Below, piece by piece: positions 25,664 through 37,246 of a stretch of DNA of 37,246 nucleotides. The DNA is taken from contig JAGXNQ010000002.1 in assembly GCA_019894955.1 (NCBI GenBank), positions 1-37,246 of the forward strand. Reading direction: 5' to 3'. The stretch's first letter is position 1, and every line of letters begins with the position of its first letter. A program made the position numbers and the translations under genes. The stretch is from Promethearchaeota archaeon. GTDB lineage: Archaea > Asgardarchaeota > Lokiarchaeia > Sigyniarchaeales > SOKP01. The notes below the pieces were generated by a model. That model worked only from the letters and a program-made list of their open reading frames with translations, was not told the origin of the DNA and made no database searches.

Positions 25664-26716
25664 TTGTCATTAGAAGAAGAAATTGAGAAGTTTTTAAAGG
25701 ATAGAGGAGCTATTAAGGTAGGTTTTGCCAATAAAGAAACATTAGCCGGACCACCTAATGCTGATATTACATACATAATTCCTGAGGCTAAATCAGCGAT
25801 TAGCTATGCTTTACTTTTTGATAAAGATATTGTTAGAGATTATTTGAGTAAAAAGGATTTTCCTAACCATGAAGGAAATCGATTTGATTTAAATTATAGA
25901 TCTGTAAAAATCTCGAAAGAATTATCTAATTGGTTAAGCGAGAAAGGTTATGAATCAAAAAGGATAATTTCGAATAATAATTACAAGAAAGAAATAAAAG
26001 GATGGAAAGTTAATATGCCTCCAAGACTTTCTCATCGCTATGTGGCAGTAGCATCGGGTGTGGGGTCATTCGGTTGGTCGGGAAATGTTGGCATGAAAGA
26101 TATTGGAACAACAATTCTGCTTGGGACAGTTGTTACAACAGCAGAACTTGAACCTACTAAGCCAATACCTCCGGAAGAATCATTTTGTACAAAGTGTAAG
26201 CTTTGCACACAAGTATGTTCAGCGAGTATGTTCTCAAAAGAAGAGGAGGTTAAATTTACACTTGGTGGCATCGAGTATTCTCATGCTGCTCGAAATGGTT
26301 ATGTTCGTTGCCAATATGTGTGCGGTGGTTTTACAGGATTACATCCGAGTGGTAAGTTTTCCACATGGTCTCCAGGGCGATTTGAAATTCCAGAAACTAA
26401 TGCTGAAATTTATAAAATGATGGGGAAGGCCTTGAGGAGATATCCCACCTGGCCTAAACGAACTGATTGTGATGGAGGATATATTAATGAATCAGCCCCA
26501 GGAATAAATATAAGGCTTACTTGTGGATTCTGCCAAAATATCTGCTGGGGAAATCCAAAAGAGACTGCTGAAAATTATCGTTTATTAACGAATTCAGGTT
26601 GTATCATCCAAAATATTGATGGGTCAATAGTTGTTTTTCCACCCGAGGAAGCTGAGCAATATTTTAAATCACTTCCAAAAGAACATAAGAGTAAATATTG
26701 TATTATGAAAGATTAA
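25664..26716 (+). CDS. QueG/reductive-dehalogenase-like Fe-S protein, copy 1
   Basis: A 350-residue cytoplasmic protein related to epoxyqueuosine reductase and reductive dehalogenases. The shared core is HRYVAVASGVGSFGWSGN at residues ~124-141, ending in ILLGTVVTTAELEP. Two [4Fe-4S] clusters are predicted from C175, C178, C181, C185 (FCTKCKLCTQVC) and C287, C290, C294 (TCGFCQNICWG), with C216/C220 extra. The usual proline after the fourth cysteine is missing. There is no Tat signal, unlike respiratory dehalogenases. Relatives bind cobalamin; whether this one does is not visible. The start is TTG 25664, placed by AGGTG six bases before it. A paralog follows at 26838. The substrate is unknown; tRNA queuosine reduction is unlikely for both copies. 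Confidence 0.8.
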   Translation: MSLEEEIEKFLKDRGAIKVGFANKETLAGPPNADITYIIPEAKSAISYALLFDKDIVRDYLSKKDFPNHEGNRFDLNYRSVKISKELSNWLSEKGYESKRIISNNNYKKEIKGWKVNMPPRLSHRYVAVASGVGSFGWSGNVGMKDIGTTILLGTVVTTAELEPTKPIPPEESFCTKCKLCTQVCSASMFSKEEEVKFTLGGIEYSHAARNGYVRCQYVCGGFTGLHPSGKFSTWSPGRFEIPETNAEIYKMMGKALRRYPTWPKRTDCDGGYINESAPGINIRLTCGFCQNICWGNPKETAENYRLLTNSGCIIQNIDGSIVVFPPEEAEQYFKSLPKEHKSKYCIMKD

Positions 26717-26837: not shown

Positions 26838-27959
26838 ATGAAGGAAAATAATTTAGAACAACAAATTAAGAAGCTTGCTATTGATGAAGGAGCAGATTTA
26901 GTTGGAATCTGCTCAGCAGATAGTATAAAGGATAAAGAGTTCTCAGATCCAAATTTTTTGATGCCTGGAGCTCAATCTGTAATTAGTATTGCGGTAAAAT
27001 TAGATGATGATATAGTAAATAAATACTTATCAAAAGAAGACTATTTAGCCCTTTGTTATGAAGAAGGTTATATAACTAAGGAATTACTAAAAATTGGGGA
27101 TAAAATCAAACAATTCTTAGAAGAAAATGGATTTAAAGCATATAGATGTAATATAAATTTTAACTATCGAAATATTAACACTACAAGCAAGTCGGTTGTC
27201 TCAGCTTTAAAGAATCTCATAGATTTAATCAATAAAGATAATGACCAGAATTTAGAACTAACTGAAAAGGAACAAAATACTTTAAATATGTTAAAGAAAT
27301 TGATCTTAGGGGGATTTAGGAAGTCTCCAATGAAATTAGTTCCTAACTTCTCTCATAGATGTGCTGCGGTAGCTGCCGGATTAGGAAGAGTTGGATGGAG
27401 TGGGAATATTATTACTGAAGAATATGGCGCACGTGTGCTTTTTGGCTCAATCATCACAGATGCTGAGCTAAAGCCAGATAATGTTTTAGCGAATAATCCT
27501 TGTATTGGATGCAAGATCTGTGAAAAATCTTGTCAAGGTGGTCTTTTTCAGAAAGAAGAACATGAGGTGATTACTATAGGAAATTTGGAAGAGAAGATTG
27601 CTAAACGTAATAGTTATGCATATTGCATAGCAGTTTGCAGTGGTATGGTTGGACAAAATAAATTTAAAGAATGGTCGACATGGTCACCTTTTAGATTCGA
27701 CGAAATTGATCATCTTCCCTTAGATGAATCCGTTGATCAATATGTGAGCAATATGTATGCTAGAGCTATAGAAAAGGGAGGAAAAGAAGCTGAAAATGTA
27801 TTAAGATTAATAGAGAATACCTTTTTGGGACGAAATGATAAACCTGCTGAGGATTTCAGACCTACATGTGGATTCTGTCAACTAGTGTGTGGCCCGACTC
27901 TGCAGAATAAAAAAGAAAGTTATGAATCAATTATAAATTCAGGTTGTATAGACAGTTAA
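26838..27959 (+). CDS. QueG/reductive-dehalogenase-like Fe-S protein, copy 2
   Basis: A 373-residue paralog of the preceding gene. The core HRCAAVAAGLGRVGWSGN (residues ~173-190) is followed by GARVLFGSIITDAELKPD, very close to the QueG/RdhA consensus. Cluster cysteines are C222, C225, C228, C232 and C344, C347, C351, with C263/C267 matching copy 1's C216/C220. Relative to copy 1 it has about 50 extra residues (roughly 113-165, lysine- and asparagine-rich helices) before the core and lacks copy 1's C-terminal tail. No Tat signal or membrane anchor. ATG 26838 lies 121 bases after copy 1, behind a leader ORF and hairpin. A T9 tract at 27970 ends the unit. Confidence 0.8.
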   Translation: MKENNLEQQIKKLAIDEGADLVGICSADSIKDKEFSDPNFLMPGAQSVISIAVKLDDDIVNKYLSKEDYLALCYEEGYITKELLKIGDKIKQFLEENGFKAYRCNINFNYRNINTTSKSVVSALKNLIDLINKDNDQNLELTEKEQNTLNMLKKLILGGFRKSPMKLVPNFSHRCAAVAAGLGRVGWSGNIITEEYGARVLFGSIITDAELKPDNVLANNPCIGCKICEKSCQGGLFQKEEHEVITIGNLEEKIAKRNSYAYCIAVCSGMVGQNKFKEWSTWSPFRFDEIDHLPLDESVDQYVSNMYARAIEKGGKEAENVLRLIENTFLGRNDKPAEDFRPTCGFCQLVCGPTLQNKKESYESIINSGCIDS

Positions 27960-28608: not shown

Positions 28609-30402
28609 GTGTTAATTATCGCAAAAATTTTAAGAATAGATTTGGAAACAAAAAAAATAGACCATGTAGATTACACTAATGAAGATGAAGTGAATTTAAT
28701 CGGAGGTATGGGTTTAGCAACTGCAATTTTCACACGAGAAGTAGAACCGGATGTTGATCCATTTGATGGGGATAATCTTTTGATTTTTTCAGTGGGCCCA
28801 TTTTGTGGTACAGCTATTCCTTTCTGTGGTAGATACTTTGTTACATCAAAATCACCGCTTACAAAAATTCTCGGGGATGCATCTTCAGGAGGTTTCTTCG
28901 GTAAGGAACTTAAATTTGCGGGTTATGATCTAGTAATCATTAAGGGTAAAAGTCCAAATCCAGTTTATCTGTGGATAAATGACGGAGTAATAGAAATAAA
29001 GGACGCTTCTGAATTGTGGGGAAAAGGAACTCAAGAAACTGATGAAAAATTAAAAGTCATGCTTGGAAACGATAAAATAAAAGTAGCTACTATTGGACCA
29101 GCAGGAGAAAATTTAGTCAAGTACGCATGTATTATTAATGATAAGCATCACGCTGCTGGACGTTGTGGAATGGGAGCAGTAATGGGCAGCAAGAACTTAA
29201 AAGCTATTGCTGTTCTTGGGAGTGGTAAAGTTCCCGTTCAAGATAAGGATAAAGTAAATGATTCCGCTAAAGAACTTAGAGAATTACTAAAAAAATCGGC
29301 ATTAGGAATGGTAATGGCTGATTCAGGGACACCTATTCACATTGATTCTATGTATAGTGTAGGAGATGTAATTATCAAGAATTATACAGAAGGAAGATGG
29401 ATTGGGATTAAAAAACTCGGAGCAAAAGCAATGCAGGCTAGGGGAGAAGTGAAAATGCATGGTTGTTTTAATTGCCCAACCGCTTGTAGGGGTTTTTTGG
29501 AGTATGAGGGAAAATGGGTAACTCGCCCAGAATATGAAACTTTAGGAATGTTAGGTTCTAATTTGTTAGTTGATGACTTAGAAGCAATAATTAAATGGAA
29601 TTTAATAGTTAACGATCTTGGATTAGATTCAATTACTCTTGGGGCAACTATTGGATGTTTTCTAGAATCTATTGAAAGAAAACTAATAGATGTTGATTCA
29701 GATGATTTTAAATTTACCGAAGAAAATATTTGGGGTAATATTGAATCAATTGAAAAACTTTTCACAAAAATTGCTTATAGAGAAGGAGTTGGTAACGATT
29801 TAGCTGAAGGAGTAAGGTCTTTTTGTGAGGTAAAGGGTTTACCAGACGAACTTTCAATGCATGGAAAAGGACTTGAGATTCCAGCGCATGAACCACGAGC
29901 TAATAATCTCACGGCATTAGATTATGCTACAACCCCTCGAGGAGGATATCATTGTTATGAACCGATGCATTTATCCTCCTACATGAATCAAAAGGAAGAA
30001 ATTGGATTAACTGAACAAGTAGAACGTTTTAGCACGGGTGATGATGTTGCTGAAGCAGTCATAAAGATTCAAGATGCTAGTGAAGCTTACTCCGCATCCG
30101 GTGGATGTATATTTGGATTCTGGTTCATTCACAAACTCACACCTTGGATAAATGGACTTAACGGAATTACTGGTAGAACCTATACTGTTGATGACTTTAT
30201 GAAAGCAGGACGAGAAATCGTTAAAATGAAAAGATTTTTTAATGTTAAGTGTGGAATAACCAAAGCAGATGATAATTTTGGAAAGAGATTTTATACCCCC
30301 CTTGAAAAAGGCGGATCAAAACGTAATACTCCTCCATTAGAAGGATTATTAGAAAAATATTACCAAATTAGAGGATGGGATGCCCAAGGCAAACCAATTT
30401 AA
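28609..30402 (+). CDS. Aldehyde:ferredoxin oxidoreductase (tungsten-pterin enzyme)
   Basis: A 597-residue, full-length AOR-family enzyme that oxidises an aldehyde to its acid while reducing ferredoxin. The N-terminal domain has AKILRIDLETKK, GGMGLATAIF and DASSGGFFGKELKFAGYD. The [4Fe-4S] ligands are C286, C289, C293 (GCFNCPTACRG) and C500 in SGGCIFGF. RCGMGAVMGSKNLKAI and the SMHGKGLEIPAHEPR stretch match the pterin-binding regions. The frame starts at GTG 28609, but GGTG (28608-28611) overlaps it and stands six bases from AUC 28618, which would give the family-typical N-terminus (AKILRIDL); the start is therefore open. Its end overlaps the opposing activase by 4 bases. The substrate is unknown; an aldehyde made by the neighbouring glycyl radical enzyme is a reasonable guess. 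Confidence 0.92.
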   Translation: MLIIAKILRIDLETKKIDHVDYTNEDEVNLIGGMGLATAIFTREVEPDVDPFDGDNLLIFSVGPFCGTAIPFCGRYFVTSKSPLTKILGDASSGGFFGKELKFAGYDLVIIKGKSPNPVYLWINDGVIEIKDASELWGKGTQETDEKLKVMLGNDKIKVATIGPAGENLVKYACIINDKHHAAGRCGMGAVMGSKNLKAIAVLGSGKVPVQDKDKVNDSAKELRELLKKSALGMVMADSGTPIHIDSMYSVGDVIIKNYTEGRWIGIKKLGAKAMQARGEVKMHGCFNCPTACRGFLEYEGKWVTRPEYETLGMLGSNLLVDDLEAIIKWNLIVNDLGLDSITLGATIGCFLESIERKLIDVDSDDFKFTEENIWGNIESIEKLFTKIAYREGVGNDLAEGVRSFCEVKGLPDELSMHGKGLEIPAHEPRANNLTALDYATTPRGGYHCYEPMHLSSYMNQKEEIGLTEQVERFSTGDDVAEAVIKIQDASEAYSASGGCIFGFWFIHKLTPWINGLNGITGRTYTVDDFMKAGREIVKMKRFFNVKCGITKADDNFGKRFYTPLEKGGSKRNTPPLEGLLEKYYQIRGWDAQGKPI

Positions 30403-31298
30403 AAATCTTTAAATGTAAAATTTGAGAAGATCTCTTTAATTTCTTTTTTTTTTTCTTTACTTAACCATTCAGAATGAAAATATTTGTGTTCAATCCCGAT
30501 TTTTTCAGATTTAGAAAGCCAAAGAGGATTATAAGATAATAATCCTATTTTTTTGACGTTTAATATGTTTAAATATTCTGCTAATGCACGCAGGTTCTCT
30601 TTTGTATCTGTTATTGATGGAATTAATGGTATTCTTGGTAATATTTCTATTACACCTTGCTTTATGAGACTTTCAAAATTTTCTAAAATTCGTTCATTTG
30701 AAACCTTGCAATAATAAGCATGAAGTTTGGGATTAAATATTTTTAAATCAAAATATATGAGATCAACATGGGGTCTTATATATTCCTCAAATTTTTCCCG
30801 ATTATAGAGCCCTGCTGTTTCAATGCAACTATGAATATTAGCTTTCCTTAATTCCTTTAATAAATTATGAACATAATTTACATGGTATAGTGGTTCACCA
30901 CCTGAGAGGGTTACGCCTCCTTTAGAGTTATCATAGAATATTTTATCTTTCAATATAATTTCCATTAATTCTTTAATTGAATATGATTTACCTACTAATG
31001 TTAAAGCGGAATTTGGGCAATTTTCAACGCAAATACCGCATAAATTACACTTACTTCGATCAATGCGAAATTTATACTCAAAATCAATAGCATCTTGGGT
31101 ACAGAAAGCTATACAACTCCCACATTCGGAACACATCTGTTTGTCAAATGATAATTCCAAATAGGGAGATTTTGCTTCCGGATTTTGGCACCAAACACAA
31201 GAAAGTGGGCATCCTTTAAAAAATATTAAGGTTCTTATACCTGGACCATCATCTAATGCGTTTCTTTTAATATCAACTATTAATGTTTTATCTATCAT
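30399..31298 (-). CDS. Glycyl-radical-enzyme activating protein (radical SAM)
   Basis: A 299-residue radical-SAM activase that abstracts hydrogen from a glycine of its partner enzyme. DGPGIRT at residues 17-23 precedes the radical-SAM cluster C30-x3-C34-x2-C37 (GCPLSCVWC). Two further [4Fe-4S] sites follow, C56/C59/C62/C66 and C84/C87/C90/C94, the ferredoxin-like insert typical of activases for dehydratases and decarboxylases rather than pyruvate formate-lyase. GGVTLSGGEPL at 127-137 binds SAM. It begins 34 bases after the glycyl radical enzyme on the same strand, a clear operon pair, and ends in a 4-base overlap with the AOR stop. Confidence 0.94.
   Translation of the reverse strand: MIDKTLIVDIKRNALDDGPGIRTLIFFKGCPLSCVWCQNPEAKSPYLELSFDKQMCSECGSCIAFCTQDAIDFEYKFRIDRSKCNLCGICVENCPNSALTLVGKSYSIKELMEIILKDKIFYDNSKGGVTLSGGEPLYHVNYVHNLLKELRKANIHSCIETAGLYNREKFEEYIRPHVDLIYFDLKIFNPKLHAYYCKVSNERILENFESLIKQGVIEILPRIPLIPSITDTKENLRALAEYLNILNVKKIGLLSYNPLWLSKSEKIGIEHKYFHSEWLSKEKKKEIKEIFSNFTFKDF
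30444..30454 (+). terminator. T11 tract downstream of the AOR
   Basis: Eleven T residues 42 bases past the AOR stop, within the 3' end of the opposing activase gene, where they encode lysines (KEKKKE). This is probably the plus-strand termination site. Confidence 0.4.
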
Positions 31299-31332: not shown

Positions 31333-34296
31333 TTATCTTGCTTGATATTCGTGTCGTTCGATAATTTCTATTTGCATATTTTCATTTAATTTCGTAAAAT
31401 ATGCATTATAACCTGAAACTCTGACTAATAACCATCTATAATCTATTGGATTGGTCATTGCATCTTTTAGAGTATCAGATGATACCACATTAAATTGCCA
31501 TTGCATTCCATTCAAATCAAAAAAGCTCTGAACATAACTAGTAAATAAATCTAATGTCTCTTCATGACTATCTCCTGCGTGCGGTACCAGTTTTACGTTA
31601 TATGAAGCGTTGTTAGCCATTTTTAAATAATCTAAAGCCGCTACGCTCTGAATGCTTGGTAGTAATATATCTGTAGTACCCGGAGCTGGAGTTAAACCAG
31701 GTGTTAATGCCTTTCCTTTTTTTCTACCTGAAGGTAATGCACCAGTCAGCATGCCAAAACCGGTGTGATAACTAATCGACCAGTATCCTATCAGATATTT
31801 ACCGTTTCTATAATTTTCTGCAGAATTGTATATCTCATAACAGTAATTAATTATCTCTTGAGCCAATTCAACTGTACCATCTTCTCCTGAGCCAAATTTA
31901 GGAACTTGTTCTATTTTATGTAGAATAGATTCGTAACCTTCGAAATTGTTATCAATAGCATCCATTAATGTCGCAAAATCAAATTCTTTTTTATTATAGA
32001 CTAGATCTCTGATAACTAATAAACTATCGATTACATCCGATAAAGCTACGAGAGCAACTCCAGAAGTATTATAAACGGCGCCTCCTTGGATGAGATCTTT
32101 TCCTTTTTCTAAAGGTCCTTCGAAAAAGCTTGATAAAAGTGGCGTTGGATGGATATATTTGTGCGATTCCCCAAGAAAATTATTTATTTCAATAGATTGC
32201 TCTGCTAAATATTTAAGTTGAGCTTTATAGGCATTTAGAAAATCATCGAATTTAACAAAATTGGATCTAGTATCACCAGTTTCAAGACCCATTAGATCCC
32301 CAGTTAATGGAATGACACCGTTATTTAATGCCATTTCCAAAGGAGCGACCAAGTTCAAGAGCATGCAATTAGTATGACCATAATGTTTTCCTACAATTGT
32401 TGGTTCAACACAACCAGTTACCCCCCAATTTCTGGCATCTTCAATAGAAAAGCCTTCATGAACTAATGCTTCAATCATTGTTTTATCGTTGTGAATACTA
32501 GGAGAAGCTCCCATATTCACATTAACTTCGGTCAAGCGTCGTAAATATTCTTTTGAATTAATCCCAGAATAATATCGAGCGTTCATATTGGGATCTTGAA
32601 ATCCTAGCATTTCATTTGTCTTTAAAATTATGAAAGTCATATCATTTACAGCATTATTTCCATCTCTATCTACTCCTCCAACTGTTACAGTGTCATCAGA
32701 AGAGCTCCCACCGAATAATTTCCAACCTACATTTGGCATTAATGGATCATGGTCATTAATCCGGATAAATAACGATCCTACCAATTCAATAGCATTTTTT
32801 ATGATCTCTTCCTTTTCAGAGTCATTTCTGGCTTTTTCAGTCTCTTTCAAAAAGAATGGTTGGAGCATTTGATCTAACCGACCAATTGACAAAGCAGAAT
32901 TAGCATTTTCACAATGTAAACACACAAAACTAGTCCAAATAGATTGAATTGCTTCTTGAAGCGTTTCTGCAGGATTCGCTGGAACTTTTGCACATATTCT
33001 AGAAATTTCTTTTAATTCTTCTATTCTTTTCGCTTGAGATGGTTCACTTGAGTCCAAAGTCTCAGAAATTCTAATAGCTTCTTCACTCAAATTTTGAGCA
33101 TATGTTAAGACTCCATTTATTGCTATTTGAATAGCTTTATAGAAATTGACTTTCTCTTCAGAATCTGCTTCTTTTTCCAGTTTTTCAGCTTTATTCTTTA
33201 CACTCTCCAATCCCTCGTTTATAATCATCGGAAAACCAGGAACAGTATGACTAATGGCATTGGTCTTCATCATAAAATAGAATAACCATCCCTCTTCTAA
33301 TGCTTGAGATTTTGGATTATTAAATTTTGTACGACAATACTCTCTCACGTTGCGCTCCATCCAATACGGAAAGACTTCTAAGCTCAGAATATCAGCATCC
33401 TTATCAGAGATATCATTAGGATTTAATTCTCTCTCTCCAATAGTCTTCAATTCTGGCCAAATTGCAGTAGCAATTAGTTCAGGATACATCGGAATTCCGA
33501 CTTCTTTTGAAGTTGTGGAACCAGCAATGAGATGCTTATCATGGATGATTGGCTTTTTGTGAGACATTATATAGTTCACAGCTCCAGCTTGTCGTAATTC
33601 AGGATCAAAAGGATTTCCAGAGTTATCGACTTCAAAACCATTTTCTTTATGATATTCAGTTACCAACTTTGCTCTTTCTACACAAATTGCGGGTTTTAAG
33701 GAAAATCTTCTGTTTTTTAAATATTTAATCCGAGGAAAATCATCTATAGAATATTTAGCTAAATAAGGATCCTCTAAGATTTCTACCTTATCAACTTTGT
33801 AATTCAAACTTTCATTTTTGAGTTTTCTACTCTTTTCTCCTCTATCAATATCATCAATTGGATATTGCACCCGGTTTTCAGGACCCTTATAATCCTTAAT
33901 TTTAGCACCCATTATGAGTGATGTTAGATATGAGAATTTCGTAAGGTAACTCATATTTCCAATATAACCCATTTCATTAGTTAGAAGGTAATCAAGCGAT
34001 TCTTCAGCGCTTTTACTGTAGAGATTAGCCAAAGTCTCTTTATCTTTATAATATATTGTTATATTTGGATTTTCTACTTTTCCATCAACAACAGTCATCT
34101 TTCCATCTTGAAAAATCACGTGAACATTAAACGCATCATCTTTAGTTGTGAATTGATATTTGGCATTGAAAATAAAACCTGTTTTTTCATTATAAATCTC
34201 TCTACGCATTTTTCGACGAGTATCGAATATCATAGCCAATAAATTTAGCTGACCTTTAAAATTTTCAAGTTCTTTTTCTACATCTAATACTTGCAT
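31333..34296 (-). CDS. Glycyl radical enzyme with N-terminal SCP2-like lipid-binding domain
   Basis: A 987-residue glycyl radical enzyme, 130-190 residues longer than usual. The catalytic thiyl residue is C629 in TGCVEPTI; the following E631 is the base of the dehydratase/lyase/decarboxylase group (GCVEP), whereas pyruvate formate-lyase has a CC pair. The radical glycine is G962 in RVSGYNAYF, 25 residues from the end. Residues ~40-130 resemble an SCP2 sterol-carrier fold (FNVHVIFQDGKMTVVDG, ENPNITIYYKDKETL, and the final helix YIGNMSYLTKFSYL). The linker 135-175 is charged. TATA-like ACTATAAAAT (34351-34360) precedes it by 55 bases. With its activase it forms an operon. The substrate is unknown; the SCP2 domain hints at something hydrophobic. 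The GRE call is firm, the SCP2 call fairly good. Confidence 0.92.
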   Translation of the reverse strand: MQVLDVEKELENFKGQLNLLAMIFDTRRKMRREIYNEKTGFIFNAKYQFTTKDDAFNVHVIFQDGKMTVVDGKVENPNITIYYKDKETLANLYSKSAEESLDYLLTNEMGYIGNMSYLTKFSYLTSLIMGAKIKDYKGPENRVQYPIDDIDRGEKSRKLKNESLNYKVDKVEILEDPYLAKYSIDDFPRIKYLKNRRFSLKPAICVERAKLVTEYHKENGFEVDNSGNPFDPELRQAGAVNYIMSHKKPIIHDKHLIAGSTTSKEVGIPMYPELIATAIWPELKTIGERELNPNDISDKDADILSLEVFPYWMERNVREYCRTKFNNPKSQALEEGWLFYFMMKTNAISHTVPGFPMIINEGLESVKNKAEKLEKEADSEEKVNFYKAIQIAINGVLTYAQNLSEEAIRISETLDSSEPSQAKRIEELKEISRICAKVPANPAETLQEAIQSIWTSFVCLHCENANSALSIGRLDQMLQPFFLKETEKARNDSEKEEIIKNAIELVGSLFIRINDHDPLMPNVGWKLFGGSSSDDTVTVGGVDRDGNNAVNDMTFIILKTNEMLGFQDPNMNARYYSGINSKEYLRRLTEVNVNMGASPSIHNDKTMIEALVHEGFSIEDARNWGVTGCVEPTIVGKHYGHTNCMLLNLVAPLEMALNNGVIPLTGDLMGLETGDTRSNFVKFDDFLNAYKAQLKYLAEQSIEINNFLGESHKYIHPTPLLSSFFEGPLEKGKDLIQGGAVYNTSGVALVALSDVIDSLLVIRDLVYNKKEFDFATLMDAIDNNFEGYESILHKIEQVPKFGSGEDGTVELAQEIINYCYEIYNSAENYRNGKYLIGYWSISYHTGFGMLTGALPSGRKKGKALTPGLTPAPGTTDILLPSIQSVAALDYLKMANNASYNVKLVPHAGDSHEETLDLFTSYVQSFFDLNGMQWQFNVVSSDTLKDAMTNPIDYRWLLVRVSGYNAYFTKLNENMQIEIIERHEYQAR

Positions 34297-35106: not shown

Positions 35107-36672
35107 ATGAGTGAGAGTGAAGAACAAAAAATTGAAGACTCATATGATGTTGTAATTATAGGAGCGGGAAATGGTGGTCTTTCTGCAACCGCGTTTCTTG
35201 CTCAAAAAGGTTTAAAAGTATTAATGTTAGAACAACATAATTTACCGGGAGGAGTTGCGACGAGTTTTGTACGAGGACGATTTGAATTCGAAACTTCATT
35301 ACACGAACTTGCTAGTTATGGTCCTGAAACGAATAAGGGTAGTGTTAGAAGGATGTTCGAGAGATTTAATATAGATACAGAATTCGTTCAGGTTCCTGAG
35401 GCTTATCGGTTAATAGTGACTGATCCTGAAGAAAAAATGGATGTTACAATGCCATTTGGAGTCGAGAATATTATCGACGCTATTGAAAAAGAAGTCCCAG
35501 ATAGTAAGGATTCAGTCAAAAACTTTTTTGATTTAGCAGAGGAAATAGGAAATGCTTTTGGATATATTGGATCAACAGGGGGAAAGCCTGATCAAGGAGT
35601 ATTAATGAAAGAACATATGAATTTTCTTAAGACCGCAGCATATTCAGCCCAAGAAGTTGAGGATGCGTTGGGTATTCCAAAAAAAGCTCAAGACATTCTA
35701 AATGGATATTGGGCGTATTTAGGGCTCCCTATAAGCAGAATAAATTTCACAATTTTTTGTACGATGGTACAAAATTATGCTGAGGTAGGAGGATGGATAC
35801 CCACAGATCGATCCCATGGTTTTACAACTGCGTTTGATGAGAGTATTAGGAATTTCGGAGGGAGAATAGAATACAATACAAGAGTAGAAAAGATACTAGC
35901 TGAAAATGGTAAAATAACGGGAGTGGAAACTGTGAATGGAGATAAAATTAAGACAAATTATGTAATCTGTAATGCGTCTCCAACATTAACGTATAATAAA
36001 CTTATCTATCCAAAATCAGAAGTACCAGAAATAGCATATAAAGATGTAAACGCACGTATTCATGGATTAACAGGTTTTGTAGTATATGCAGGATTAGATG
36101 CTTCAGCTGAAGAGTTAGGTTTAACGGAATATGGTTACTTTATCATGGACACTATGAATACTGAAGAAGTATATGATTCATGGACCATCCTTCAGCCTCC
36201 TAAGGGATTAGCTTGTGTAGTTCTTAATAGCTCACTTCCAGATGCTTCACCTCCAGGGACATGTATATTAGATATAACAACACTTTTTAGACCAGAAGCT
36301 TGGGAAAAAGTAAAACCAGAGGATTACTATGAGATTAAAACAAAAATAGCAGAAGAACTATTGATAAAATTTGAAAAAGCTACAGGGACCTCTATAAGAG
36401 ATCATGTTGAGGAAATTGAAATAGCGACCCCTGCTACCTTCGCACGTTATACAAGGCATTATAAAGGGATATTTTATGGATATGAACCAGAAGCGTGGGA
36501 TTCTATTGTGCCTCGATTAATGAACATGGGAAAAGATGTATATATTGAAGGTCTAGAATTCGCAGGCGGATTTAACAGACGATTGCATGGATACAGTAGC
36601 GCATTGGGTGATGGATTAATCTCAGCTCAACTAACATATGCTAAAATAATGGAGGAGCGTGGAAAAGCATGA
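35107..36672 (+). CDS. Phytoene-desaturase/retinol-saturase-like FAD oxidoreductase
   Basis: A 521-residue flavoprotein. The dinucleotide-binding start VVIIGAGNGGLSATAFLAQK lies near residue 15, followed by LEQHNLPGGVATSF, as in CrtI-type desaturases, CrtISO and retinol 13,14-reductase. The middle domain holds WIPTDRSHGFTTAFDESI and the FAD domain returns in GGRIEYNTRVEKILAENG. The C-terminus EFAGGFNRRLHGYSSALGDG is the FAD-closing motif. Relatives insert, isomerise or reduce C=C bonds of isoprenoids; an archaeon could use it on polyprenyl lipids or quinones. The stop overlaps the next gene's ATG (ATGA), so it is translationally coupled to a reductase that could supply electrons, favouring a saturase role. 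Substrate unknown. Confidence 0.85.
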   Translation: MSESEEQKIEDSYDVVIIGAGNGGLSATAFLAQKGLKVLMLEQHNLPGGVATSFVRGRFEFETSLHELASYGPETNKGSVRRMFERFNIDTEFVQVPEAYRLIVTDPEEKMDVTMPFGVENIIDAIEKEVPDSKDSVKNFFDLAEEIGNAFGYIGSTGGKPDQGVLMKEHMNFLKTAAYSAQEVEDALGIPKKAQDILNGYWAYLGLPISRINFTIFCTMVQNYAEVGGWIPTDRSHGFTTAFDESIRNFGGRIEYNTRVEKILAENGKITGVETVNGDKIKTNYVICNASPTLTYNKLIYPKSEVPEIAYKDVNARIHGLTGFVVYAGLDASAEELGLTEYGYFIMDTMNTEEVYDSWTILQPPKGLACVVLNSSLPDASPPGTCILDITTLFRPEAWEKVKPEDYYEIKTKIAEELLIKFEKATGTSIRDHVEEIEIATPATFARYTRHYKGIFYGYEPEAWDSIVPRLMNMGKDVYIEGLEFAGGFNRRLHGYSSALGDGLISAQLTYAKIMEERGKA

Positions 36673-37246
36673 ATGAAGAAAATAAAGAAAAATTAAATGT
36701 CACTGTTAGAAGTAATACAAAAGATTTGTTTGCTTTTACTAAACTGGTTCCTAATAGAATGAAACGGATTGAACGCGCATCAAGTGAGCCGCTTACAGAA
36801 GATCCAATAAATGACCTTGCGAGAAAATTACATCCTGAAAGTCAATTTTTAATAATTAAAAGTATCAAAGAAGAGACTAAATCTACTAAAACATTCAAGT
36901 TAGTTCCCGATCCTAAATCAGAAACTAAAGAACTATCGTATTTTAGACCCGGTCAATATCTCAGTTTAAAAGTTGATGTTAATGGTATTCGAATTACTAG
37001 ACCATATTCAATTGCTTCTTCACCAACAGATGTAGCTAAGGGATTTTACGAGATAACGATCAAAAAAGAAGAAAATGGATTCTTAACTCATTATCTTTGG
37101 GATAATTGGAAAGTGGGCACTAAAATTGAAAGTTCAGGTCCGGAAGGATTCTTCTTTTTTGAGAGATTAAGAGATGTAAAAAACATTGTTGGAATTGCTG
37201 GTGGCTCAGGAATTACCCCCTTTAGATCTATTGCAAAAGCAATACT
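36669..37246 (+). CDS. Ferredoxin-NAD(P)H reductase-like flavoprotein, cut off by window edge
   Basis: The frame begins at ATG 36669 in a 4-base ATGA overlap with the saturase-like gene and is open to the window end (192 codons). After ~55 variable residues the FAD-binding beta barrel begins: FLIIKSIKEET, YFRPGQYLSLKV, then RPYSIASSP, the RxYS flavin motif, near residue 118. VGIAGGSGITPFRSI near residue 180 is the start of the NAD(P)-binding domain. It belongs to the FNR/phthalate-dioxygenase-reductase superfamily; a C-terminal [2Fe-2S] domain may follow outside the window. It is likely to pass electrons from NAD(P)H to the coupled flavoprotein, which is inferred from gene overlap. Confidence 0.85.
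   Translation, partial: MNEENKEKLNVTVRSNTKDLFAFTKLVPNRMKRIERASSEPLTEDPINDLARKLHPESQFLIIKSIKEETKSTKTFKLVPDPKSETKELSYFRPGQYLSLKVDVNGIRITRPYSIASSPTDVAKGFYEITIKKEENGFLTHYLWDNWKVGTKIESSGPEGFFFFERLRDVKNIVGIAGGSGITPFRSIAKAI

Follow-up and report, generated by a model that had tools for sequence, protein, structure and literature searches.

A clade of glycyl radical enzymes coupled to an SCP2-fold domain in Asgard archaea and Desulfobacteria

The Fusion Gene and Its Glycyl Radical Enzyme Part

The window analyzed here is a stretch of 37,246 nucleotides from contig JAGXNQ010000002.1 of a Promethearchaeota archaeon. The genome, an assembly of 244 contigs, is Lokiarchaeal, since the closest relatives are 89 per cent identical orthologs in Candidatus Lokiarchaeia/Lokiarchaeota metagenome-assembled genomes (MAGs). 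On the minus strand, positions 31333..34296 encode a protein of 987 amino acids (aa), counted from an ATG, in which an SCP2-fold domain is fused to a glycyl radical enzyme (GRE), as assigned from the translation, Pfam and orthologs; the plus strand of the same interval is full of stops. Pfam recognizes a PFL-like GRE barrel (PF02901; residues 189–848, 31753..33732, E = 7e-161) and a glycine radical domain (PF01228; residues 865–968, 31393..31704, E = 1e-22), both on the minus strand.

The first-pass annotation of this DNA had reported intact GRE motifs, and both are in place in the translation: the C629-V630-E631 stretch of the GCVEP motif (32404..32412), comprising the thiyl radical cysteine and the adjacent glutamate, and G962, the glycyl radical site, in RVSGYNAYF (31411..31413). 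A conserved histidine, H350 (33247..33249), aligns with H160 of HypD and with the histidine of GRE diol and glycerol dehydratases. With the PFL-like barrel, the glycine radical domain, the barrel cysteine, the RVxGY loop and a cognate activase all present, the open reading frame (ORF) is, judged from sequence, an intact glycyl radical enzyme. Its approximately 190 extra N-terminal residues are real and conserved among archaeal and bacterial relatives; they consist of the SCP2-fold domain (residues 1–130, 33907..34296) and a linker (residues 131–188, 33733..33906) that is of low confidence in structural models. All of these features lie on the minus strand.

Gene Neighborhood in Lokiarchaea

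Directly downstream of the GRE gene, on the same strand, lies a gene for a radical SAM glycyl-radical activating enzyme (30399..31298) with a CPLSCVWC motif and two 4Fe-4S motifs. The product matches the PFLE_PFLC family above the Pfam and NCBIfam cut-offs (TIGR02494, 288 bits against a cut-off of 174). An activase gene is adjacent in most related loci, as read from sequence clusters and ORF lists.

Next to it, a gene for an aldehyde ferredoxin oxidoreductase (AOR) is encoded convergently (28609..30402, plus strand). Because there are 12 AOR-encoding places in the window genome, a single AOR neighbor is weak evidence of a functional link. AOR is, however, a recurrent neighbor of the GRE and follows the activase on the same strand in loci L001, L003, L006 and L013; such recurrence in several arrangements is better evidence than one neighbor, yet the loci are related. 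On the other side, a CrtISO/phytoene-desaturase-like FAD oxidoreductase (35107..36672, plus strand) is divergently encoded and conserved as a neighbor in related Lokiarchaea. Its partner, a ferredoxin-NAD(P) reductase-like protein (36669..37244, plus strand), runs off the window; the ortholog at L006:5016-6248 has FAD_binding_6, NAD_binding_1 and Fer2 domains. Further neighbors of the Lokiarchaeal GREs are a malate/L-lactate-type dehydrogenase and a cation efflux gene. Two adjacent homologous Fe-S proteins with weak Fer4 matches are encoded near the GRE cluster (window positions 25664-26716 and 26838-27959) and by eye resemble reductive-dehalogenase/QueG-like proteins.

The N-Terminal Domain

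We identified the N-terminal domain by fold and by profile–profile comparison, in place of single-sequence searches of Pfam and PDB. In an AlphaFold2 model computed from a 16-sequence alignment (pLDDT 81), its PDB matches by Foldseek are SCP2-fold proteins at all of ranks 1–39; the best is UbiJ-SCP2 (E = 3e-6), and the others include AF1534, SdsA1/Pisa1, the SCP2 domain of MFE-2, and rabbit and human SCP2. An hhalign comparison of the N-domain profile with a profile of Asgard SCP2 proteins gave Prob 97.5 (E = 6e-12). The SCP2 side of that comparison was built from OYE-SCP2 fusions and stand-alone SCP2 proteins of Asgard archaea that Pfam recognizes (1e-8 to 1e-13), together with three neighboring relatives, so that most, not all, of its sequences pass Pfam.

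In direct Pfam searches, the SCP2 model gave sub-threshold matches to the whole protein (E = 0.15) and to residues 1–148 (E = 0.018), and the 12.8–15.8 bits scored by the window domain do not reach the curated cut-off of PF02036 (21.3 bits). The weak match is co-linear (domain residues 44–122 on positions 20–97 of the 101-position model), and 8 of 20 family members have SCP2 Pfam matches, the best at E = 5e-4. The resemblance of the N-terminal ~135 residues to SCP2 domains, which the first-pass annotation had pointed out, is thus upheld by the Foldseek and hhalign results at the level of the fold, whereas the Pfam profile search that it had proposed stays below the curated cut-off. Residues 1–130 are predicted to adopt an SCP2 fold, and we file them as an SCP2-fold domain, not as a member of Pfam SCP2. 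The full-length chain was modeled at pLDDT 61, too low a confidence to tell whether the SCP2 cavity opens toward the barrel.

The UbiJ SCP2 domain (6h6p; E = 3e-6) and archaeal AF1534 (3bn8; E = 1e-5) share the predicted fold, but they have only 12–13 per cent identity to the N-domain and are not attached to GREs. The alkylsulfatases SdsA1/Pisa1 (structural match at E = 5e-5) are likewise enzymes with a fused SCP2-fold domain, but in these the domain is C-terminal, the catalytic part has a metallo-beta-lactamase fold and the reaction is hydrolysis, not radical chemistry.

OYE-like flavin oxidoreductases in other Asgard genomes carry C-terminal SCP2 domains (L079:2862-5237, L080:4673-7048 and L081:5190-7550; Pfam SCP2 E-values of 1e-12 to 2e-8), and an Asgard AOR-like protein has a weak match to the SCP2 profile. 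Fusion of SCP2 to redox enzymes may therefore be a wider Asgard habit.

A Clade Coupled to SCP2

In searches with a profile of the domain, 36 of 228 Asgard-phylum genomes yielded strong matches (E<1e-20); among 291 Desulfobacteria genomes, 65 had matches at E<1e-6. To place the associated enzymes, we reconstructed a maximum likelihood tree (quick search; support values are SH-aLRT) of 84 GRE domains, including the references pflB, ybiW, hypD, cutC, AfPflD and diol dehydratase. All SCP2-linked GREs form one group together with the GREs of loci L108 and L110 (support of 99), within which the fused forms and L110 are again one group (support of 100). The domain, which might have been a common N-terminal extension of GREs, instead marks a single clade, spread over Lokiarchaeia, other Asgard archaea and Desulfobacterota. 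Fusions from Desulfobacteria (L014, L171-L174) branch beside Asgard sequences that include the window protein, which implies inter-domain transfer in either direction.

The coupling takes several forms. Thirty-nine rows of the tree have the fused SCP2-GRE form, and 14 rows, L083 included, have a separate SCP2 gene directly downstream of the GRE gene. A single-contig genome carries a fusion (L183). The separate genes encode ~135–190 aa and stand in the order GRE-SCP2, usually followed by the activase. At L083, the SCP2 domain is the C-terminal part of a transmembrane (TM) protein encoded between the GRE and activase genes, and at L084 it is the C-terminal part of a multi-pass membrane protein encoded before an activase gene. 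In Desulfobacterium MAGs, as many as three fusion genes stand in tandem, accompanied by a single activase gene and a gene for a TetR-type regulator (L151:5573-15541); the fusions are probably paralogs for different substrates. At L167:6997-11581, the SCP2-GRE is split into an N-terminal piece of 850 aa and a 191-aa C-terminal GRE piece, separated by ~1.5 kb that holds another ORF, and looks like a disrupted gene.

To avoid circularity, we also searched with the GRE part alone. Among the 291 Desulfobacteria genomes, this query returned ~92 near-full-length matches of ~610 to 1285 bits, and the next full-length GREs score 424 bits or less (34 per cent identity). By a hand count from the listing, in which the fused-length ORFs were only partly examined one by one, ~69 of the matches are fused-length ORFs of ~988 aa or more; ~22, one of them cut by a contig end, are ORFs of ~814–854 aa with an SCP2 match adjacent or in the same genome. 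All 10 further members that we examined individually, most of them chosen because they were absent from the Desulfobacteria domain-profile list, carry the SCP2 domain, fused or adjacent. A similar gap exists in Asgard archaea, where clade members score ~548 bits and above and unlinked GREs 470 or less. There are two exceptions: the GRE gene of L108 lacks an adjacent SCP2 gene, although its genome encodes TM-SCP2 and an activase on a different contig (L082), and L110 is truncated by a contig end. Nearly every complete clade member examined is coupled to an SCP2 domain. The fusion that the first-pass annotation had proposed to look for in other genomes recurs in Asgard archaea and Desulfobacteria, fused or as separate genes, and the window protein represents an SCP2-coupled GRE clade in its fused form, not a one-off. 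A plasmid search found no SCP2 fusions among the 40 matches listed, in which the GRE match starts at residue ~176–201. Our literature search returned nothing relevant on GRE-SCP2 coupling (one fungal genome paper contains both words), and this branch of GREs is apparently undescribed so far.

Two Lokiarchaeal GREs with KVGGY glycine loops, L036:1253-3853 from the window genome and L119:3890-6313, are long-branched in the tree; the former has an unusual active-site motif, GCVDM, with Asp in the place of Glu. In-frame TAA codons were flagged in many unlinked Lokiarchaeal GREs, probably reflecting alignments that overrun the real stop.

Active Site and Relationship to Known GREs

Residues C629, E631, H350, N705 and W839 are kept across the clade, as is D568 with two Glu exceptions. 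The cysteine motif is GCVE or GCLE. The clade resembles dehydratase-type GREs (AfPflD, 2f3o; HypD, 6vxc; diol dehydratase, 5i2a; glycerol dehydratase, 1r8w) and CutC, at ~30–35 per cent identity, in its barrel, GCVE-type Cys-x-Glu motif, glycine-radical loop and PFLE-type activase. It differs from them in forming a separate clade, in its SCP2 coupling, in the signature of D568, N705 and W839, and in having VSG/ISG at the glycine (loop R[VI]SG) where VAG (RVAG) is usual. The position of H350 is also His in PflD, HypD and diol dehydratase, whereas CutC has Asp. The best NCBIfam match of the window protein is the general PFL2-3 subfamily model, at 532 bits below its cut-off of 678; the models for HypD, CutC and indoleacetate decarboxylase (IAD) give 440, 425 and 279 bits (IAD cut-off 1100); the equivalog models for choline TMA-lyase, HypD, HpsG/HpfG, IAD and HPAD are all far below their cut-offs.

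In glycerol dehydratase, the residues that we take to have roles are H164, E435, D447 and H281/S282. H350 and E631 are retained in the window GRE, but the equivalent of D447 is N643 and those of H281/S282 are S467/A468. As these glycerol-dehydratase-specific residues are replaced, we rejected assignment as a plain glycerol/1,2-diol dehydratase.

Genomic Context in Desulfobacteria

Neighbors in Desulfobacteria include DUF6765 and TetR_C_33 proteins, OleD/HpnA-like reductases, short-chain dehydrogenases/reductases (SDRs), thiolase, a ChsH2-OB protein, enoyl-CoA hydratase, acyl-CoA dehydrogenase and CoA ligases. Together they suggest a metabolism of lipophilic acyl or alcohol compounds (lipids) and do not name the substrate. 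What the neighbors do differs from clade to clade, and the only constant elements are the GRE, SCP2 and, in most cases, the activase. The DUF6765 protein (E = 4e-107) often neighbors the separate-subunit form (L029:6716-7828 and eight other loci) and might belong to the same pathway. In two loci, 176-aa proteins with no Pfam match (L029:2598-3128 and L028:3072-3602) are encoded upstream of the GRE-SCP2-activase operon, adjoining two alcohol-dehydrogenase-like genes; by eye, they are possibly another lipid-carrier-like protein.

Proposed Function and Alternatives

The substrates known for GCVE-type GREs are small and polar. The first-pass annotation had nevertheless suggested a hydrophobic or lipid-tethered substrate, and this suggestion is strengthened by the lipid/acyl-CoA neighbors and by a coupling that is conserved whether SCP2 is fused, encoded in the operon or part of a membrane protein; as with lipid binding and elimination chemistry, it is something that we infer. 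On balance, we favor as reasonably probable that the window protein is a GRE of the eliminase type and that its SCP2 domain binds the substrate by a hydrophobic tail. The downstream activase would install the radical on G962, from which it would pass to C629; the thiyl radical would then abstract hydrogen from a substrate that is hydrophobic except for one polar, oxygenated end, where the abstraction would take place. E631 and H350 could provide the acid/base chemistry for an elimination of the dehydratase (or C-X lyase) type. Its product, which would be an aldehyde, a ketone or an unsaturated compound, might be taken up by neighboring aldehyde oxidoreductase, SDR or acyl-CoA enzymes. By analogy with UbiJ and SdsA1, the SCP2 domain may bind the greasy tail and present the head to the barrel: the SCP2 domain of UbiJ is proposed to present a lipid-tailed intermediate to soluble enzymes in ubiquinone synthesis, and the same tail-binding role is proposed for the C-terminal SCP2-like domain of SdsA1.

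An unlikely but serious alternative gives the SCP2-fold domain a structural or regulatory role in place of lipid carriage: it would cover or gate the barrel or aid activation, much as small subunits do in benzylsuccinate synthase or hydroxyphenylacetate decarboxylase, and the substrate may be small and polar. The separate SCP2 gene does lie between the GRE and activase genes, a frequent position for accessory subunits, and the SCP2 sequence signal of the domain has eroded below the Pfam cut-off. Yet the hydrophobic positions of the domain are conserved across the set (on its own no proof of a cavity), the domain of L083/L084 is tethered to a multi-pass membrane protein and the neighbors favor lipid/acyl-CoA metabolism.

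It is rather improbable that the enzyme is a decarboxylase of lipophilic or aromatic acids with SCP2 binding a fatty or aryl acid. GCVE is common also to the arylacetate-type decarboxylases (those of hydroxyphenylacetate, indoleacetate and phenylacetate), and the weak IAD match points the same way, but the dehydratase- and lyase-type models HypD and CutC score better and no arylacetate-pathway neighbors were seen.

Least probable is an archaeal alkylsuccinate/benzylsuccinate synthase that adds hydrocarbons to fumarate with SCP2 delivering alkanes, because true X-succinate synthases have LCMSPG and no His at position 350. A hydrophobic substrate and a nearby activase gene would be shared with such GREs, the clade has members in Desulfobacterota, a group with hydrocarbon degraders, and archaeal GREs with a 'GC' motif, some of them Lokiarchaeal, have been annotated in print as of this type (PMC8163825). 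Our controls, encoded beside BssD-like activases in Desulfobacteria (L195-L197), have no Glu after the Cys, whereas the SCP2 clade has GCVE/GCLE and His, and the window GRE, with GCVEP, lacks the LCMSP-type motif. The known synthases also have small subunits in place of SCP2, and in PDB comparisons the window GRE scores 350–388 bits with dehydratase-type GREs, far more than with MasD (212) or TutD (173). Archaeal 'GC-motif' GREs should thus not be taken for hydrocarbon-activating succinate synthases.

What is new here is not the single fusion but the breadth of the GRE clade and its near-constant pairing with SCP2, and the separate-subunit form permits a direct test of the domain's role. More tentatively, and with more doubt than assent, we can envisage a whole undescribed GRE family, exchanged between Asgard archaea and sulfate reducers, that uses a dedicated lipid-carrier domain or subunit for radical eliminations on lipids that are long-chain or derived from membranes. 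If so, the family could open an anaerobic route by which ether lipids or the head groups of lipids are degraded in sediments. Retention of SCP2 through fusion, separation and membrane tethering implies that GRE chemistry may extend to lipophilic substrates in anoxic sediments.
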